From NCBI RefSeq assembly GCF_904846055.1, contig NZ_CAJGYV010000001.1:2232001-2296000 (forward strand): a DNA stretch of 64,000 nucleotides, written 5' to 3'. Every line of letters starts with the position of its first letter. Position 1 is the first letter of the stretch. The notes under the pieces were generated by a model. It was given only the letters and a program-made list of their open reading frames with translations, made no database searches and was not told the origin of the DNA. Positions 3,153-20,567 of this stretch are shown piece after piece. Source of the DNA: Psychrobacter ciconiae. Lineage in GTDB: Bacteria > Pseudomonadota > Gammaproteobacteria > Pseudomonadales > Moraxellaceae. A program made the position numbers and the translations under genes.

Positions 3153-3268
3153 GCGCCTTTAAGTGCCTTTTTTATTTTAAATCTGTTGCTTTAAAGCCGT
3201 ATAATAAAGCTTAGGTTGATGATTCAAAGCCTATTTGTTCATGTTAGATTCACGGTAGGTTGAAGGCA

Positions 3269-4081
3269 ATGATGCCAAACTTAGCTTCTGACCAACAATT
3301 TATTGTCACTATTTTGACCATTAACTTTCTGGTTTGGCAGGGATTGCGGCTGTTTTTTTATCAAAAGCTGTCAACGGTTTATCTGATTGCGCGCTCATGG
3401 TGGTGGCTGCTTGTCGTCTTATTTTTTTGCTATTTAGGGTCACAATGGCAAGATGTCACAGGTAATTATCCTTATAATTGGGTATTAGATGGGCTATTTA
3501 TTTTAATTGGGGTTCAAGGCGGCTTTGAGATGTTCAGGGTTTCTCGCAATCGCCTTGCGAAAAAACATACGTTATTCACTGTAATGTTAACGGTGTTGTT
3601 TTTTACGCTAATTTTAAGCTTAATTTTACTCAATCATTTAACGCTTTTTCATCATCAACATGGCGTGATATTGTTCGTGCTGTTTGCCAGTCAATTTAAC
3701 GACATTGCGCAATATATTTGCGGAAAAGCATTGGGTCAGCGCTTGTTTAAGCAAAAACTTGCGCCCACAATCAGCCCAAATAAAACCATTGAAGGGGCGG
3801 TATTTGGTAGTTTTTTATCGTCACTATTAGCAGCGCTACTTGGACTTTGGTTGACGCCTTTTGGCGTTGCGGTTTGCTTTGGGGTTGCCTATGTATTGGC
3901 AGTGACGGGGATTTGCGGCGATTTGCTCGTTTCGGCATTTAAACGCCGCTATCAGGTCAAAGATATGGGCGCGCTGTTGCCCGGTCATGGCGGCATATTA
4001 GACCGCGTGGACAGTTTGCTGATTGGCGTGCCTTTGTTTACCCTTATTTATTGGCAGGCTTATCCAAGCGTTTTTTCATAA
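3269..4081 (+). CDS. CdsA-family phosphatidate cytidylyltransferase (YnbB-like)
   Basis: Integral membrane enzyme expected to form a CDP-lipid from a phosphatidate-like lipid and CTP. About seven to eight hydrophobic segments are visible. The CdsA signature is intact at the C-terminus: SAFKRRYQVKDMGALL followed directly by PGHGGILDRVD. SPNKTIEGAVFGS lies before it. An ATG pair at 3269/3272 with GAAGG just upstream is preferred over the in-frame TTG at 3260. It overlaps the convergent SDR gene by 38 nt. The neighbouring YnbA-YnbC-like fusion makes this the probable equivalent of E. coli ynbB, a second CdsA-like protein of unknown role, rather than the essential housekeeping cdsA. That assignment is inference. 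Confidence 0.85.
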   Translation: MMPNLASDQQFIVTILTINFLVWQGLRLFFYQKLSTVYLIARSWWWLLVVLFFCYLGSQWQDVTGNYPYNWVLDGLFILIGVQGGFEMFRVSRNRLAKKHTLFTVMLTVLFFTLILSLILLNHLTLFHHQHGVILFVLFASQFNDIAQYICGKALGQRLFKQKLAPTISPNKTIEGAVFGSFLSSLLAALLGLWLTPFGVAVCFGVAYVLAVTGICGDLLVSAFKRRYQVKDMGALLPGHGGILDRVDSLLIGVPLFTLIYWQAYPSVFS

Positions 4082-4865
4082 GAAAGTTGAGTAAAGGCTT
4101 GGGCAGAGTGTTTAAGGTTTGAACAAGGTAGCGCATGGGCTTTGGAAAAATTGCCAATTTAATATTGTCATTAATGGCGGTCATCATATAGTCGGTCGCA
4201 AGCGCTTCACTGATGATAAACGGCTTGTGGCGGGCATCACCATGATTTAGGTCGCGAAGGCTTTGGGTATCAATGTAGCCTGAGGCAATGCAGTTGACCT
4301 GAATGTTAAAAGGTTTCAGCGCCAATCGGTAAGCGTCACAGGTGGCAATCATCGCCTGTTTGCAGCGCGCGTAAAGACTGGCATAAGGATAAGTCATCAT
4401 CCCTGCGATGGAGGCGAGGCAAATGAGGGTAGGTTTTGGCAGGGTTGAATTTAAGCTTTGATAATTTGCTTGCGCGGTCAGCACCTCACTTGCCCAAAGC
4501 ATCATATCGTTAAATGCTTGCAAATTTATCGCCAGCATTTTGTAGCTGTCGTGGCTATTTAGTTGCAATTTACGCTCATTGAGATACCAGCCTGCCGAGT
4601 AAATCACGCGATTAAAAAAAGGTTTGGTGTCATATTCAAGCTGATAAAACAATTTCCGACGCTGACACGTTGACGTTAAATCGCATTGCAGCGCTTGAAT
4701 ATTGGGATAAGTGTTGCGGATTTTGTCAATTTTATCTGCTCGGCTGCCAACGACGGTAACGCGCCAACCATCTGCCAAATGCCGAAGTGCAAGCGCTAGA
4801 CCGATACCGCTTGTGCCGCCAAAAATCAGCACGCTTGGCGGGTTTGCTAAATCATTGTCAGGCAA
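4044..4865 (-). CDS. SDR-family NAD(P)-dependent oxidoreductase in the lipid locus
   Basis: Classical short-chain dehydrogenase: nucleotide loop GGTSGIG near residue 16, a CDLTS acidic position, the catalytic Ser in LASIAGMM near 150, and YARCK (Tyr-x3-Lys) about 13 residues later. Its C-terminal PKPLLNFLMKKRL looks amphipathic or membrane-associating. No ATG lies near the N-terminus; a TTG start at 4865 is supported by AAAAAGGA eight bases upstream. It lies 14 nt after the patatin-like gene, so it is the third gene of the minus-strand operon. The substrate is unknown; context suggests a lipid keto group or alcohol. Confidence 0.82.
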   Translation of the reverse strand: MPDNDLANPPSVLIFGGTSGIGLALALRHLADGWRVTVVGSRADKIDKIRNTYPNIQALQCDLTSTCQRRKLFYQLEYDTKPFFNRVIYSAGWYLNERKLQLNSHDSYKMLAINLQAFNDMMLWASEVLTAQANYQSLNSTLPKPTLICLASIAGMMTYPYASLYARCKQAMIATCDAYRLALKPFNIQVNCIASGYIDTQSLRDLNHGDARHKPFIISEALATDYMMTAINDNIKLAIFPKPMRYLVQTLNTLPKPLLNFLMKKRLDKPANK

Positions 4866-4879
4866 GTAAATTGTCCTTT

Positions 4880-6052
4880 TTAAAGTAAACTTTTAAGATA
4901 GTCAGCGGTTCGCTGATAGCCAAATTGCCACTGCATCGCCATTTGCTGAACAAACTTATCATAGCTTGGATAATTCAGCTCAACTTTTCCTAACAAGGGG
5001 CGAAATTTTTTGCCAATATAATTACCATTTAAGGCGGCAGCTTGATCGGCAAAAGGTAGCCAGTGAACGTTATGTTTTGATGAGTCGCCAAACTCTTGAT
5101 AAACGCGTTGCCAGCGCTGATTGGGGTCAAAACCAAAAACGCGCTTGATGGCAGGAACAGCAAGCTTAGTGTCGTAATCGGCTTTGGTTTCGGCAAAGAC
5201 CGTTTTACCCAGCTTTACTGCCATTTCAATGGGCGTTAAGTCAATCACCCCGCCAAGCGACCAACCCACGCCGTCAATATAAATCGGCGATAAATAATAC
5301 ATATCGGCAATGGAGGCGCGAATGGCGTGCCTCCATTGCCAATCAAAAACCGGATAAATGCTTTTGGCGATTCGGTTAGGTGCTACTTGATGCAATGGGC
5401 AGGACATCGCCGTTAGCAAAGGATGGTTAGCGAAAGCTTTTGGCGCAAAAAGCACTTCTTGAAGGTAAAAGTCTGGAGTTTGCTTATCTAATTGCTTCGT
5501 CGCTCTATTTTCATTGTTCGGCTGATAAAAGCGACTGGCGATAATGGCAATATCTGGGCTTGACGTGGTGTTTTCAGTTGTTAAGTCTGCTTTTAAATTT
5601 AGCAGCGGTTCGAGCCAGTCATCATCAATCGTAAAGAGCGCTTGATTTTTAAGTTCATCAAGCAAGCTTTCCATGCAATCGGTGTGGTGATAACGTGCCA
5701 GTTTTTTAGGCTTTTTATTTAAATAGCTTTGGTTTAAGTAGCTTTTGTCTAAATAGTAGCGCTTGAGCGCCTGATATAAATGGCGATGATTGGTCAGGCC
5801 AAAGGAGTTTTTAGCGTGAGTAGGCTGAGTTTTACCAAGCGCTTGATAAAGGACTTGGCTTTGCGATAAGTCGCGTAAGTCTTTTGGGTTGGGAGCAATA
5901 TCCACCAAAAGCGCGGCCAAACTGCCGCCGCAAGATGCCAAAATTAAATCAGGCGGCAAACCAAATTCACAAAGCGCGGCATAACTGCCCAAATAATAGC
6001 CAAAACGAGTGCTGCCGCCTGAAAATAGCATCACCCGTTGATAAGGCGTCAT
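4880..6052 (-). CDS. Patatin-like phospholipase-fold protein with altered catalytic residues
   Basis: The fold is suggested by an N-terminal Gly-rich oxyanion-type loop (FSGGSTRFGYYLGSYAAL) and a nucleophile-elbow position reading ASCGGS where patatins have GxSxG. Near residue 250-277 is a patatin-like block (ASIADMYYLSP, then SLGGVIDLTPIEMA) where DGG should be. Compared with the family, the catalytic Ser is Cys and the Asp is Leu, so ordinary Ser/Asp lipase chemistry is doubtful. Length is 390 from the ATG at 6052, which overlaps the upstream stop as TGATG, implying translational coupling. A TTG one codon earlier is possible. Family assignment is moderately sure; function is unknown. Confidence 0.7.
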   Translation of the reverse strand: MTPYQRVMLFSGGSTRFGYYLGSYAALCEFGLPPDLILASCGGSLAALLVDIAPNPKDLRDLSQSQVLYQALGKTQPTHAKNSFGLTNHRHLYQALKRYYLDKSYLNQSYLNKKPKKLARYHHTDCMESLLDELKNQALFTIDDDWLEPLLNLKADLTTENTTSSPDIAIIASRFYQPNNENRATKQLDKQTPDFYLQEVLFAPKAFANHPLLTAMSCPLHQVAPNRIAKSIYPVFDWQWRHAIRASIADMYYLSPIYIDGVGWSLGGVIDLTPIEMAVKLGKTVFAETKADYDTKLAVPAIKRVFGFDPNQRWQRVYQEFGDSSKHNVHWLPFADQAAALNGNYIGKKFRPLLGKVELNYPSYDKFVQQMAMQWQFGYQRTADYLKSLL

Positions 6053-8520
6053 CAAGGCGTAAAGCTCTCTTTTTTGGCAAGTGAAACCGTAAAAATGCCA
6101 AAGTGGTCGATTCGCATCGCTACTTTGGTAAATCCTGCTTTTTGTACCAACTGGTCGATTTCAGCTTGCGAGCGGCAGCGCATCAGCCAGCTTTGACCTT
6201 GATGATTGGTGAGCGTTTTGCCGATAAATTCTTGCTCAGGATGCCACGGCTGATTGGTATAAATGAAATAGCCGCCGTCAGTTAAGCTTTGATAAATGCC
6301 CTCAAGCGCGGTCATGATTAACCCATTGCTTGAGAACAGCTCAAAAACGCCTGAAGCGATTGCCAAATCAAACGCCGGTGGATGGGCATAGCTGTCTTGG
6401 CAAAACGCATCTTTTTGTAGTGCTTGGGCGCGAGTGCTAACGCCATGCTCAAGGGCTTTTTCTTGCAAGACTTTGATGTTATGAGAATCATAATCACGAA
6501 GCTCGGCGCTGATGTGGTCAAATTGCTGCAACAGCTCCATCACGTAATCGCCGTTGCCGCTGGCAATATCAAGCAGTTTTAGTTGGCTTTTATCCGTGTT
6601 TAAGTCATCAATGGCAACCTTAGCAAGCTCCAATAAATGCTGACGGCGAATGCGAATCCCTTGCCAGCCAATGTTATTTAAATAAAATTTATCAACGGCG
6701 CGCCCAAGTACGTTTTTGCCCCGAGGCTGATTGTCATAAACTTTATCAAGCGAGCTGCCAGAGTCAAAACCATGCTCAAGCCCTGTCGCAATCGCATCGC
6801 TGATATGACCGAATTTTTGCATGGCAAGTCGGGTGAGGGCAAAGCTTGGGTTAAATGGCTTAATGGCAAGCCTATCCACGGTATCTTTGCTCGCGCTGTC
6901 GTTATGGGCTTGGCTTAAATCCACGGTTTTGGCAGGCGCGTCAAAAAGCGTTTCGGCAAAATCAATACAGTCTTTGATAACCTCAGCTTTATTGGTTTCG
7001 TGAAAAATGGCGTGAAAGCTGTCAGGATAGAGCTTCCAATACTTATTGGGCGCGCGGATACCCTCATAAAAGTCGCGCTCTGCTTGTTTATCCACCACAT
7101 AATCTTTGCCCGCGCAAAGGATAAAGGTCGGTGTGGTGATTGCGCCGGCGTCATCAAGCAGCCGCTTTCCGGTGGCATGGGTGTCAATCAGCAAATCACT
7201 TGAAATGCTACTTGAAATCAGCGGGTCAGTTTGGTACTCGGCTTGTGCGGCTTTGTCATGGGTTAACACTTGCGCTTTGACATAGCTTGACACACGCGGC
7301 ATCAGGTTAAGCTTGCGAGCGGCTTTAAGCATCGGCAGGGCAAACGGCAAATAAAGCCGAATGCGCAGGGCGGGCGTTGCCAAAATCATACCGCGAATAT
7401 TGGGCGCGTAATCGTGAACCCAAGCCGCGGCAAGCGTTGCGCCAATGCTGCTTGCGACAATAATCGTGTTTTCAAGCGCGATGGCTGATTTTTTAACCAC
7501 CAAACGCACAAAATCGTCCAAATCGCGCTCAAGCTCGGTCACGCTTTTAGCATGGTCTTTGATGCCGCCTGAGCGACCATTACCGCGAGCATCCCAAGCA
7601 AAAACTTGGTAGCCTGAGTTAACAAATCCTAACGCCACGTCTTTTAATCGCCCTGAATGCTCGTGACCTCGGTGCATTAAAATAACTTGTTTTTGAGCGA
7701 TTTGGCTATGTTTTAGCTCGGACAAAGGCATCGTTAGCCAATAGCGATAATAAATCGCTGTGCCATCGTAAGCGTTAAAGCAGCTTTGCTCGCTGATGAT
7801 TGGCGGCGTTTTGGTTGATGAATTTGGCATATCGCCTCCTTGCGATGGGCTAAAAAACGGTAAGGGCTTTGATTGAGCGATTGCTAATGGCGGCGCTGGA
7901 TGGAAATAATCAAAATAATGCGCGGCAATAAAAGCTAAGCGATTGATACTGGTTTTAATCAGGAATAATTGATTGCTAACTAGTAAAAAAGAAGTGATGG
8001 GTTTTAAGGGAGCGTTTAAAGCTACCAGTGTGCCGATGACGCCTATTTCAAAAGCGCGGTCACTTTTTCCTAACGGTCCATGATTGGCGCGTGCTCCCGT
8101 TATTTTTTCAGCTGCTATGGCAATGATTTCGGTAGCAAGGCTCAATTTTTGAACGATTGACAGTTGTGATTGCTGTTTGGGTGATAAGTGTCCTCGAAAG
8201 CTGGCAAGCAGCGCCCAATCTGAAACGATATCGCCGGCTTCATTCAAGATAGCGCCTTGTCTGGTTGCTTGCTTGTGCTCGCGCGCCATCATGCCATCGA
8301 TAGCGTTCATTGCCATTCGCAAAAACAAGGACAGCGGCAATATCAGCAAAATGCGGCGCTGATGATTGCAATCAATGCGCGCAACTATGAGCGCTGTCCC
8401 AACATTGAGCATCACCGCGCTTATTGTCACTTGGTTTGCGCTGATGCCTATCGCCACCAACTGGTTGCTGATAGGTCGCAGCTGATGTTGAAACCTTGAT
8501 TTAAGCTGATATAACGACAT
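6052..8520 (-). CDS. Three-domain fusion: CDP-alcohol phosphatidyltransferase / alpha-beta hydrolase / SAM methyltransferase (YnbA-YnbC-like)
   Basis: An 822-residue protein. Residues 1-205: membrane CDP-alcohol phosphatidyltransferase-like domain with NAIDGMMAR at 72-80, G89 and D97; two of the four consensus Asp positions are Asn (N72, N93). Residues 231-530: alpha/beta hydrolase with oxyanion HRGHEHSG, nucleophile elbow ASSIG (Ser358), Asp in CAGKDYVV and His in DSFHAIFHE. Residues about 600-822: class I methyltransferase with LLDIASGNGDY. The last two domains match the architecture of YnbC (E. coli) and the first matches YnbA, separate genes there. Start ATG has AAGGT upstream. Residue 231 is a Met with its own strong ribosome site. 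It is the first gene of an operon with the patatin-like and SDR genes. Confidence 0.85.
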   Translation of the reverse strand: MSLYQLKSRFQHQLRPISNQLVAIGISANQVTISAVMLNVGTALIVARIDCNHQRRILLILPLSLFLRMAMNAIDGMMAREHKQATRQGAILNEAGDIVSDWALLASFRGHLSPKQQSQLSIVQKLSLATEIIAIAAEKITGARANHGPLGKSDRAFEIGVIGTLVALNAPLKPITSFLLVSNQLFLIKTSINRLAFIAAHYFDYFHPAPPLAIAQSKPLPFFSPSQGGDMPNSSTKTPPIISEQSCFNAYDGTAIYYRYWLTMPLSELKHSQIAQKQVILMHRGHEHSGRLKDVALGFVNSGYQVFAWDARGNGRSGGIKDHAKSVTELERDLDDFVRLVVKKSAIALENTIIVASSIGATLAAAWVHDYAPNIRGMILATPALRIRLYLPFALPMLKAARKLNLMPRVSSYVKAQVLTHDKAAQAEYQTDPLISSSISSDLLIDTHATGKRLLDDAGAITTPTFILCAGKDYVVDKQAERDFYEGIRAPNKYWKLYPDSFHAIFHETNKAEVIKDCIDFAETLFDAPAKTVDLSQAHNDSASKDTVDRLAIKPFNPSFALTRLAMQKFGHISDAIATGLEHGFDSGSSLDKVYDNQPRGKNVLGRAVDKFYLNNIGWQGIRIRRQHLLELAKVAIDDLNTDKSQLKLLDIASGNGDYVMELLQQFDHISAELRDYDSHNIKVLQEKALEHGVSTRAQALQKDAFCQDSYAHPPAFDLAIASGVFELFSSNGLIMTALEGIYQSLTDGGYFIYTNQPWHPEQEFIGKTLTNHQGQSWLMRCRSQAEIDQLVQKAGFTKVAMRIDHFGIFTVSLAKKESFTP
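7828..7841 (-). promoter_or_regulatory. Internal Shine-Dalgarno and in-frame ATG at the YnbA/YnbC junction
   Basis: Read on the minus strand, AAGGAGG (7841-7835) is followed by CGAT and an ATG at 7830-7828 that is codon 231 of the fusion. This is the strongest ribosome site in the neighbourhood. It sits exactly between the membrane domain and the hydrolase domain and would initiate a 592-residue hydrolase-methyltransferase, close to the size of stand-alone YnbC. It could be a relic of two fused genes or an active second start. Confidence 0.75.
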
Positions 8521-8650
8521 TGCTAAGACCTTTTACGAATCGAAGTTTGTAAATCCGTGTTAAAGAATCATAGCAAAGGCGTCACTATTAAACGAGCATT
8601 AACGAGCATGGTTTGGTTTTTTAATTTTAACGCGATGGTGACTTGAGCCG

Positions 8651-9184
8651 TTACCACATCAAATCATCAGGAATGACATACGCCGCATACGGGTCATCTT
8701 CATCGACCTCGGAGCTGGTTTTGTCGTTTGACACCACGATAAAGCCGTCCATTTTGTCGTTAATGCGCTCAGCAAGTGGGTAGGGCAGCAGCGCGTAATT
8801 GTCATCTAAGCGGGCAATCACCACGTGACCGGACACGATTTGGTCGTAAAGCTTTTGGGTGGTATAGATTTTTTTAACTTTGCTGTCATCGACAAACTGA
8901 TAGCTGACATCGCCTGCGGTATCTGCAATTTGATGCTGCTTAATCATTTGCACAATATTAGCGGCAAGGGTTTTTTGTTCAAGCTGCTGCTGCTTTTCTT
9001 GGTTAAGCTGTTGGTCTTTGGCGATTTTTTCAGCTTGGGCGGCAGCGATTGCTTTTTTGGCTTCAATCGCCGCGTCGTCGCCGGTGCGCTTGGCGTGCGC
9101 TGATTGTTTGTTCAGCTGTTTTGCCTTTTTGCTGTTTACTAAGCCGGCTTTTAACAGTTGGGCTTGCAGGGCGTTTTTTGCCAT
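8651..9184 (-). CDS. DUF2058 family protein (YaiL-like)
   Basis: The product of 177 residues has the family's two-part layout: an N-terminal Lys/Ala/Gln-rich, probably coiled-coil half beginning MAKNALQAQLLKAGLVNSKKAKQLNKQ, and a compact C-terminal half ending PDDLMW. DUF2058 members have been called nucleoprotein or polynucleotide-associated, but no reaction is established. ATG at 9184 has AGGA six bases upstream; longer in-frame starts add eight non-family residues. Monocistronic, divergent from aspA. Confidence 0.85.
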   Translation of the reverse strand: MAKNALQAQLLKAGLVNSKKAKQLNKQSAHAKRTGDDAAIEAKKAIAAAQAEKIAKDQQLNQEKQQQLEQKTLAANIVQMIKQHQIADTAGDVSYQFVDDSKVKKIYTTQKLYDQIVSGHVVIARLDDNYALLPYPLAERINDKMDGFIVVSNDKTSSEVDEDDPYAAYVIPDDLMW

Positions 9185-9371
9185 AATTTTTCCTAAAAAT
9201 ATCATCAATAACGGTCAAAATGCTATGGTAGCAAATTTTCAACATAATTGGCGCGGTTTGTCTTACCCATTTATTTATTAAATTATTAAAATTTATTATA
9301 TCGTTTATGACAGTTTTCCCTTACAAAAGTGGTATTATCAAGGAGCACCCACCTTTTAATCAGGACAAATT

Positions 9372-19330: not shown

Positions 19331-20567
19331 CCCAAGTCGCCGTAAAACCATGCCGTTAAGGGCATGGATATCAGGCGACAGGCGTTGACGCTTAGAATTG
19401 TTTTAGGCTTGCTAAAATTCACTAAACCCAGCAAAATCAAACCATGAAAACCTTTAAACTCCGACTTAAAGACAAACACGCCAAACAACTGACCGCGATA
19501 AGTGGTTCGGTCAATTTTGTTTGGAACTATGTCAATGAGTTGAGTTTTAAACACTTACAGCCAACTGGAAAGTTTTTTAGCGCTTACGACATTGCTAAAT
19601 ATACTAAAGGTAGCGGTGAATATTTAGGCTTACACTCGCAAACCATTCAAGCGATTAATGAAACCCATACCAAAAGCCGAAAGCAGTTTAAAAAAGCCAA
19701 GTTAAGATGGCGAACCAACAACTCCAAAGCCAAAACAAAAAGCTTAGGTTGGATACCGTTTAAAAAGAGTGCTATAAAATTCATTGGTACTCGTCAAAGC
19801 GGTAAAAAAGCACTTAAATCAACCATTCAATTGTCACTAGCCAAAGGTCAAAAGCTGATCATTGAGTTGTTTGATAGCTACAATTTAGCATTGTATGACC
19901 TAAATACCCTTGAGTTGGTTCAAGATGCGAGAGGTAGATGGTACGCCTGTATCACAGTCAAAGCCCAAAATGACGCCAAAGCCCAAGGCGGAACGGGTCA
20001 GATTGGCATTGATTTAGGACTCAAAGAAGCTGCAACCACCTCAGATGGCGACACCCTCACCGTCAAACAAACTCAAAAATGGGCTAAAAAACTGGCAATA
20101 GCGGGGCGAGCTAAGAACAAACAGCGCACCCAAGCCATTCACGCCAAGATTAAAAATACTCGTAAAGACATTATTCATAAATTCACGACCCAACTTGTGC
20201 GTAATAATGCTTTGATTGTGGTCGGTGACGTAAAATCAAAATCATTCACCTCCAAAAAAACTAATCTTGCCAAATCGACTTACGATGCAGGTTGGTTTGA
20301 GCTTAAACGGCAACTGGACTATAAATGCAAGCATGCAGGTTGTCGTTTTGAGATTGTGAATGAAAGCTACACTACCCAAACTTGTTCGTGTTGCGGCTCA
20401 CGCCAAAACAGCCCGAAAGGTAGAACAGGTTTGCGAATAAGAGAATGGACTTGTGAGTGTGGTGTCACTCATGACCGTGATATCAATGCGGCAAAGAACA
20501 TTCTTGCGGTCGGGCTTGACCGTCTGGGAGCAGAAATCCCCTCACTTTAGGGAGGGGAGGAAGTCAA
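19331..20567 (+). mobile_element. TnpB-only IS200/IS605-type element, copy 1 (1237 bp)
   Basis: Ends are defined by alignment with copy 2 (55601-56837), which has exactly the same length; similarity stops at the same points. Left end CCCAAGTCGCCGTAAAACC contains a subterminal hairpin CCATGCC/GGCATGG (19348-19367). Right end has a CCCCTC/GAGGGG hairpin (20538-20557) over the tnpB stop and ends GAGGAAGTCAA. Both copies are preceded by TTTAT (19326-19330 here), the likely target/TAM sequence. There are no terminal inverted repeats or target duplication, as expected for this family. No tnpA is present, so movement would need a transposase in trans. Inserted between the maeA and ddh terminators. 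Confidence 0.88.
19444..20550 (+). CDS. tnpB: RNA-guided endonuclease TnpB (IS605 OrfB family), copy 1
   Basis: 368 residues. The N-terminal WED/REC-like part (FKLRLKDKHAKQL, FVWNYVNELS) is followed by a RuvC nuclease: D190 in GIDLGLKEAATT, the RuvC-II strand reading LIVVGDVKSKSF (Gly261 where many TnpBs have Glu), then AKSTYDAGWFELKRQL, E307 in VNESYTTQ, a zinc ribbon (TCSCCGSR ... WTCECG) and the last acidic site in HDRDINAA. It is intact, with no frameshift. ATG lies 113 bp inside the left end. The closest homologue in view is copy 2. TnpB proteins cut DNA next to a TAM using an omega-RNA made from the element's right end. Confidence 0.9.
   Translation: MKTFKLRLKDKHAKQLTAISGSVNFVWNYVNELSFKHLQPTGKFFSAYDIAKYTKGSGEYLGLHSQTIQAINETHTKSRKQFKKAKLRWRTNNSKAKTKSLGWIPFKKSAIKFIGTRQSGKKALKSTIQLSLAKGQKLIIELFDSYNLALYDLNTLELVQDARGRWYACITVKAQNDAKAQGGTGQIGIDLGLKEAATTSDGDTLTVKQTQKWAKKLAIAGRAKNKQRTQAIHAKIKNTRKDIIHKFTTQLVRNNALIVVGDVKSKSFTSKKTNLAKSTYDAGWFELKRQLDYKCKHAGCRFEIVNESYTTQTCSCCGSRQNSPKGRTGLRIREWTCECGVTHDRDINAAKNILAVGLDRLGAEIPSL

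Follow-up and report, generated by a model that had tools for sequence, protein, structure and literature searches.

A conserved in-frame start site at the junction of a fused ynbA-ynbC-like gene of Psychrobacter: candidate origin of a second protein product

The 64,000-nucleotide stretch of the Psychrobacter ciconiae genome analyzed in this study (the window; contig NZ_CAJGYV010000001.1, positions 2,232,001 to 2,296,000) carries on its minus strand a gene in which the counterparts of Escherichia coli YnbA and YnbC are joined in one reading frame of 822 codons. In the linker between the two halves, codon 231 is an ATG preceded by a Shine-Dalgarno (SD) sequence. Comparison with related genomes indicated that this gene arose by an in-frame fusion that very probably still yields two products, namely a membrane-anchored long form and a soluble form of 592 residues.

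The inner site of P. ciconiae consists of AAGGAGG, the spacer CGAT and an ATG in frame with the 822-codon gene, which is the arrangement that the first-pass annotation of this DNA had described at codon 231, with AAGGAGG four bases upstream. The duplex energy of the inner SD is -10.7 kcal/mol. The sequence GGATCACCTCCTT, which we take to be the usual 3' end of 16S ribosomal RNA, is present at 4 places in the genome, and AAGGAGG therefore matches the expected anti-Shine-Dalgarno sequence. Moreover, a count over the 2.48-Mb genome gave 20 occurrences of AAGGAGG-N3-9-ATG, versus 5 of the reversed pattern. Among those 20, the codon-231 site stands out by the 234 open codons upstream of it; at no other site does an open frame extend beyond 51 codons upstream. 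Of the remaining 19, 13 begin open frames of at least 56 codons and resemble gene starts, and 6 begin open frames of fewer than 30 codons.

For the comparative analyses, 104 fused frames were reduced to 59 distinct fused genes by the removal of duplicates of genes from two collections, and the codon tests were based on an earlier set of 54 genes (46 + 8). Left out of the 59 were L055, which is a part of the P. ciconiae gene, the pattern matches L118-L141, and the broken copies of four genomes, G034 (L006, L164), G003 (L023, L116, L165), G087 (L115, L163) and G106 (L117, as judged from its coordinates). The 59 genes were selected for an open frame; the fair base for frame retention is the set of 63 genomes described below. 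Measured from the counterpart of residue 203 to that of residue 243, the linker is 40-173 residues long in the relatives. An in-frame linker ATG was found in 59/59 genes, and in 54 of them it is preceded by an SD with a duplex energy of -5 or below. In 200 synonymous shuffles, which preserve each protein and each gene's codon counts, hence Met, and which are a test of the SD alone, a strong SD appeared in a mean of 15.5 of the 59 genes and in a maximum of 25, versus the 54 observed. Elsewhere in the fused genes, in-frame ATGs carry a strong SD in 31 of 996 cases and out-of-frame ATGs in 63 of 2300, and none of 9 well-conserved Met columns outside the linker has a strong SD in half of its members. 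Furthermore, 46 of the 59 genes have exactly one Met in the segment corresponding to residues 209-243, and of 120 proteins listed, the 119 fused ones whose ends could be recognised all have a linker Met. When 37 unique contexts were anchored on the ATG, the upstream information content was highest at positions -13 to -11.

The same pattern was recovered when the 51 linkers of the larger, GGAG-type group were aligned as proteins, with neither the ATG nor the SD being used. In this unanchored alignment, Met was present in 51/51 sequences without gaps, and no other linker column was invariant. The two SD codons underwent 0, 3, 0 and 0, 0, 2 base changes on the tree, and most other linker columns showed 3 to 12 changes per position; where Leu TTG had changed to Ser TCG in an SD codon, the final G was unchanged. 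These comparisons show the SD and the ATG to be conserved beyond the demands of the protein code. A chance origin of the inner SD was rejected on the basis of the shuffles, the genome-wide pattern count, the comparison with other ATGs and the unanchored linker alignment.

The SD-like element lies where a helical domain of the membrane type gives way, through a probably disordered linker, to a soluble domain, and it might alternatively serve as a ribosome pause site that lets the membrane domain insert first, with the full-length protein as the only product. However, pausing requires no ATG, whereas the ATG is found throughout the 59 genes and the Met is the one residue that never varies among the 51 linkers, and we consider a pause site improbable.

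The conserved start occurs in two signal types of the same RNA element. In the larger group of 51 genes, the element mostly reads xxG-GAG-N9-ATG (46 genes with GGAG, 5 with GGA only). On the tree of these genes, positions -13, -12 and -11 are unchanged and position -10 has two changes; in the same comparison, 785 third positions of conserved domains had a median of 7 changes, and 4.7% of them had none. In the 46 genes of this type in the earlier set, codon -5 ends in G in 46/46, versus 0/78 Leu/Ser columns. The Glu codon GAG was also tried as a signal by itself and found not to be special. In the smaller group, which comprises 8 genes including that of P. ciconiae, the element is AAGGA and the Gly codon is GGA in 8/8, versus at most 4/8 in 36 invariant-Gly columns of the AAGGA-type genes. 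These 8 genes are 0.34-0.98 substitutions per site apart, and 6 of them have a single linker ATG. Midpoint rooting had suggested that the AAGGA-type genes form one clade, a result that was overturned with outgroups, which placed the P. ciconiae gene as sister to the other 58. Because this gene branches first, the AAGGA type seems, and probably is, the ancestral one.

The codon data also bear on the possibility that the junction peptide is a protein motif conserved in its own right, such as a site for binding or for a protease, with the SD arising only from the codons used. The peptide L/S-E-x-x-x-M-P of the larger group is indeed fairly conserved. The smaller group, however, mostly has QG-xx(x)-M and still matches the anti-Shine-Dalgarno sequence, as does the larger, and in both groups the codons are biased in the manner described above (the third-position G of codon -5, the GGA of the Gly codon). 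We regard a peptide motif as very improbable.

With respect to the relative use of the two starts, the SD energies over the 59 genes had medians of -5.9 at the inner site and -0.9 at the gene start, and the inner one was the stronger in 58/59. Accessibility was assessed in every third gene (20/59), and the inner start showed less pairing than did the remaining in-frame ATGs (0.574, 20 genes, versus 0.381, 328 ATGs); the genes are related, so the p-value of this comparison is only indicative. With the stronger SD and the more open start region, the short form would probably be more abundant than the long form.

The distribution of the fused gene was determined in 105 genomes of the genus. The protein was matched in 64 of them, of which G012 gave a weak match (25%). 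A search with the Methyltransf_20 profile matched 63 genus genomes, 59 of which have an open frame of at least 826 codons at the match; the other four (G034, G003, G087 and G106) carry broken copies. The gene is patchy in the genus, with 41 of the 105 genomes giving no match. Because of this patchiness, it is probably dispensable. Outside the genus, stand-alone YnbC frames of 578-640 codons were found in the same family in genus g293 (50 genomes) and genus g304 (4 genomes); one of these frames (G505) has a TAG within the YnbC match. Moreover, the strong full-length matches outside the genus were stand-alone proteins of 578-651 residues in a sampling of 369 genomes of the class and 390 of the order.

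Of 53 named loci, 48 belong to Psychrobacter, which identifies the genus, 4 to Moraxella and 1 to an Osedax symbiont. In all four Moraxella loci (L106, L107, L108 and L113), ynbA and ynbC are two genes, each read in a frame of its own, and each ynbC is preceded by AAGGA or AGGAG. In L108, the ynbC ATG overlaps the ynbA stop and a CAGGAG SD lies inside ynbA; in L107, the two genes overlap by 11-14 nucleotides, depending on the ATG chosen. In the Osedax symbiont Rs1 (L110), ynbC begins directly after the ynbA stop and is likewise unfused. In a tree of the YnbC part, all 59 fused genes form one clade (support 0.955) that is sister to Moraxella (0.983), with the P. ciconiae gene as the first branch when rooted with outgroups. 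Because there is a single fused clade and the outgroups are split, two separate genes are the ancestral state, and a single fusion took place before the genus diversified. The first-pass annotation had offered a recent fusion with a leftover start as one possibility and had proposed a comparison of split and fused forms. That comparison, with fused frames in 59/63 genus genomes and split genes in Moraxella and the outgroups, does not bear out a recent event, and recent fusion was rejected since the fusion is common to the genus, forms a single clade in the YnbC tree and is older than the divergence of the genus. A sequencing error hiding a stop or frameshift at the junction, which had been named as a possible refutation, is also unlikely, as the fusion is genus-wide and the same junction peptide occurs in a 92% identical protein of 821 residues (P0002) on another contig.

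One broken copy bears on the two starts. In G034 (L006, L164), the YnbA half is frameshifted between the residues matching 113 and 142, and the linker and the YnbC half are open, as would be expected if the inner start alone remained in use there. The idea that the short product alone matters and that the full-length frame is incidental and harmless would fit this copy and the weak gene-start SD of most members (median -0.9), but it has scarcely any probability, in view of a frame that is open through the YnbA half and the linker in 59 of the 63 genomes despite widely varying linker lengths, and of the many YnbA-domain residues that are conserved at 90% or more across the relatives. The pause site, the peptide motif and the short-only product each leave a part of the evidence unexplained.

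Several points nevertheless speak against the production of two proteins from the fused gene. The gap of 9 nucleotides between SD and ATG in most relatives is rather long, and in 5 of the 59 genes the SD is weaker, at -3.1 to -3.3. Some other positions close to the element are similarly quiet (no change at -15, one each at -5 and +4, two at -7), and GAG at codon -4, found in 42/46 genes, is not unusual alone, 2 of 14 conserved Glu columns reaching 0.91. Outside the linker, alignment column 154 contains a Met in 14 genes and has a strong SD in 14/14. The sequences are related, so the shuffle counts overstate their independence; furthermore, the start was defined as the ATG with the best SD among 1-5 linker ATGs, and the absence of ATG changes in the anchored comparison is a result of that construction, from which the unanchored linker alignment is free. 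At the outer end, the gene-start SD was taken at the ATG aligned with the first Met of the P. ciconiae gene, and TTG or GTG codons four codons upstream of the gene start have SDs of up to -3.9 among the 14 genes listed. Lastly, the frameshifted YnbA half of G034 demonstrates that the long form can be lost.

The architecture of the P. ciconiae gene is in line with two products. The frame begins with an ATG and contains no internal stops. The first-pass annotation had recognized three activities in this one frame and a YnbA-YnbC-like fusion, and both statements were confirmed by the uninterrupted frame and the Pfam domains: residues 1-194 are 40% identical to E. coli YnbA, and residues 242-818 are 41% identical to E. 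coli YnbC. The CDP-OH_P_transf profile (PF01066) scores 23.0 bits, barely above its cut-off of 22, and E. coli YnbA scores 39.2 bits. Behind it, Hydrolase_4 (186 bits) and Methyltransf_20 both exceed their cut-offs and form a pair that is also present in E. coli YnbC. In the alignment of 51 rows, S358, D473, H503, D651, G655 and G657 are conserved at 90% or more; we take the first three to be the Ser-Asp-His triad of the hydrolase and the last three to be motif I of the methyltransferase. The canonical signature of CDP-alcohol phosphatidyltransferases is D-x2-D-G-x2-A-R-x8-G-x3-D-x3-D, in which the first and third Asp serve in metal binding in typical members of the family. The YnbA domain departs from this signature, with both residues being replaced by Asn (N72 and N93), which are conserved at 90% or more in the 51-row alignment and are likewise Asn in E. 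coli YnbA. The chemistry of YnbA may thus differ from that of the usual CDP-alcohol phosphatidyltransferases.

An AlphaFold2 model was built from the 51-row alignment (mean predicted local distance difference test (pLDDT) 78.9, predicted template modeling score 0.65). The model contains helices at residues 3-206, a low-confidence stretch at residues 208-236, which was read as disorder, and the first strand of the hydrolase at residue 242, 11 residues past Met231. Because the low-confidence linker comes first and the hydrolase begins only at residue 242, a protein initiated at Met231 would be a complete YnbC. In Foldseek searches, the top structural matches of the model were monoglyceride lipases, followed by methyltransferases; among the matches of the first domain to PDB sequences were phosphatidylinositol-phosphate synthases (E 0.0008-0.002). 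The earlier expectation that the long form would be tethered to the membrane and the short form soluble agrees with the helices predicted ahead of the probably disordered linker.

These data suggest the following course of events. In a Psychrobacter ancestor, the neighboring ynbA and ynbC became a single reading frame, and ribosomes would have gone on initiating at the old ynbC start, which now lay within the fused frame. One product would be the full-length chain of YnbA and YnbC, held in the inner membrane by the YnbA helices, and the other a soluble YnbC (592 residues in P. ciconiae); selection would have retained both. The proposal of an 822- and a 592-residue protein, made earlier from the P. 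ciconiae sequence, has gained support from comparison through the retention of SD and ATG in a hypervariable linker. We infer initiation itself, the ratio of the products, their locations and their roles. More speculatively, the long form might couple CDP-alcohol transfer to lipid hydrolysis and methylation at the membrane, and the short form might work on released substrate or join the long form as a subunit. That soluble YnbC in excess assembles with membrane-bound YnbA-YnbC into a lipid-modifying complex, with a stoichiometry set by the ratio of the two starts, is a tentative and rather doubtful extension.

The nearest precedent, by analogy, is the SctQ family of type III secretion (Spa33, SpaO and YscQ), in which, according to the available part of PMC6925163, an in-frame internal start gives rise to a C-terminal product, as proposed here. 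The same portion of that source describes the two parts of SctQ as separate genes in flagella (fliM and fliN), just as ynbA and ynbC are separate in Moraxella, the Osedax symbiont and g293. However, Spa33C begins with GTG and has a size of approximately 12 kDa, whereas an ATG with an SD and a complete two-enzyme protein are proposed for the fused gene. The proteins and their function are different, and a membrane-anchored product is proposed for the fused gene; moreover, the short form of Spa33 has been reported to bind the long one. In-frame internal starts that yield shorter proteins are also represented by N-terminally truncated proteoforms of E. coli and Salmonella (PMC11005335, in the part available). 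In that part, 42 E. coli genes with in-frame internal starts in two strains are cited, a clpA case is among the references, and conservation of starts was studied in enterobacteria. Those cases came from ribosome profiling, and the present one comes from comparison and concerns the former start of a separate gene. Among the matches listed from the open-licence literature, judged by title and the start of the abstract, no description of a ynbA-ynbC fusion with an internal start was found. In-frame internal starts are already known; what sets the fused gene apart is that the former start of the downstream gene has been kept genus-wide after fusion, with one of the products being membrane-bound.

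If the inner start works, an unannotated second protein is produced from the fused locus across the whole genus; the named entries in the protein listing show the fused loci as one long protein. It would also follow that the separate expression of a downstream gene can survive gene fusion. If a complex of long and short forms exists, fusion that leaves the old start in place would be an evolved means of tethering some of an enzyme pool, unlike an operon or a plain fusion. The series of two genes, overlapping genes and a fused gene with a retained start offers material for testing the retention of old starts in domain fusions, and the fused locus offers a handle on the little-studied ynb pathway.

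Table 1. Coordinates of the fused gene, its parts and its neighbors in the window.
Feature	Position	Strand	Basis
Fused gene: YnbA-like domain, linker and YnbC-like hydrolase-methyltransferase, 822 codons	6052..8520	-	Open reading frame, Pfam, E. coli identity
Weak SD-like element AAAAGG of the gene's own start (8520)	8529..8534	-	Duplex energy -3.4 kcal/mol
Predicted helices, residues 3-206	7903..8514	-	Structure model
CDP-alcohol phosphatidyltransferase domain, residues 28-167	8020..8439	-	Pfam PF01066 (CDP-OH_P_transf)
Inter-domain linker, residues 207-241, probably disordered	7798..7902	-	pLDDT <50 at 208-236
Inner SD AAGGAGG	7835..7841	-	Sequence; AAGGA or GGAG element kept in relatives
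Inner ATG, codon 231	7828..7830	-	Sequence; linker ATG in 59/59 fused genes
Proposed second product, 592 residues, complete YnbC-like hydrolase and methyltransferase	6055..7830	-	Strand at 242; stand-alone YnbC sizes
Hydrolase_4 (monoacylglycerol-lipase-like), residues 275-510	6991..7698	-	Pfam; best Foldseek matches monoglyceride lipases
Methyltransf_20, residues 520-817	6070..6963	-	Pfam PF12147, 313 bits
Patatin-like phospholipase, overlaps the fused gene's stop	4880..6055	-	Pfam; match in 52/53 named loci
Short-chain dehydrogenase, next gene	4044..4865	-	Pfam
CdsA/YnbB-like cytidylyltransferase, converging	3260..4081	+	Pfam CTP_transf_1; 30% identical to E. coli YnbB

The neighborhood of the fused gene can be compared with the E. 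coli ynbABCD cluster, in which YnbA and YnbC are homologous to the two halves and YnbB resembles the product of the converging gene. The E. coli cluster has ynbB between unfused ynbA and ynbC genes, whereas in P. ciconiae they are fused, the patatin and dehydrogenase genes come next and the ynbB-like gene lies on the other strand. Matches to both the patatin and the dehydrogenase were found in 51/53 named loci, and to the converging CdsA/YnbB-like gene in addition in 50/53. In the Moraxella and Osedax symbiont loci, the patatin and dehydrogenase genes come after neighboring, unfused ynbA and ynbC. A YnbD match lies further on in 4/53 named loci. In genus g293, ynbA stands beside a stand-alone ynbC and is followed by a YnbD-like gene in 9/9 loci read; a YnbD-like gene after ynbC also occurs in many other outgroup loci, and ynbA adjoins ynbC in many, though not all, of the short outgroup stretches. 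The downstream part of the ynb cluster appears to be exchanged, with patatin and dehydrogenase in Psychrobacter, Moraxella and the Osedax symbiont and the YnbD-like gene in g293 and many outgroups.

A lipid role of the pathway is likely. Overproduction of YnbB in E. coli resulted in more of the glycolipid MPIase, and a ynbB knockout caused no significant drop (PMC6362211, in the part available). In the accessible part of PMC13313352, ynbC is called a putative hydrolase/methyltransferase, with no further function given there. On its other side, the fused gene adjoins a DUF2058 gene (8651-9208), for which no match was found in the 53 named loci with flanks of up to 5 kb. Elsewhere in the window, the open reading frame at 19444-20550, as judged by eye, resembles TnpB/OrfB of the IS605 type, with CxxC motifs near its end.

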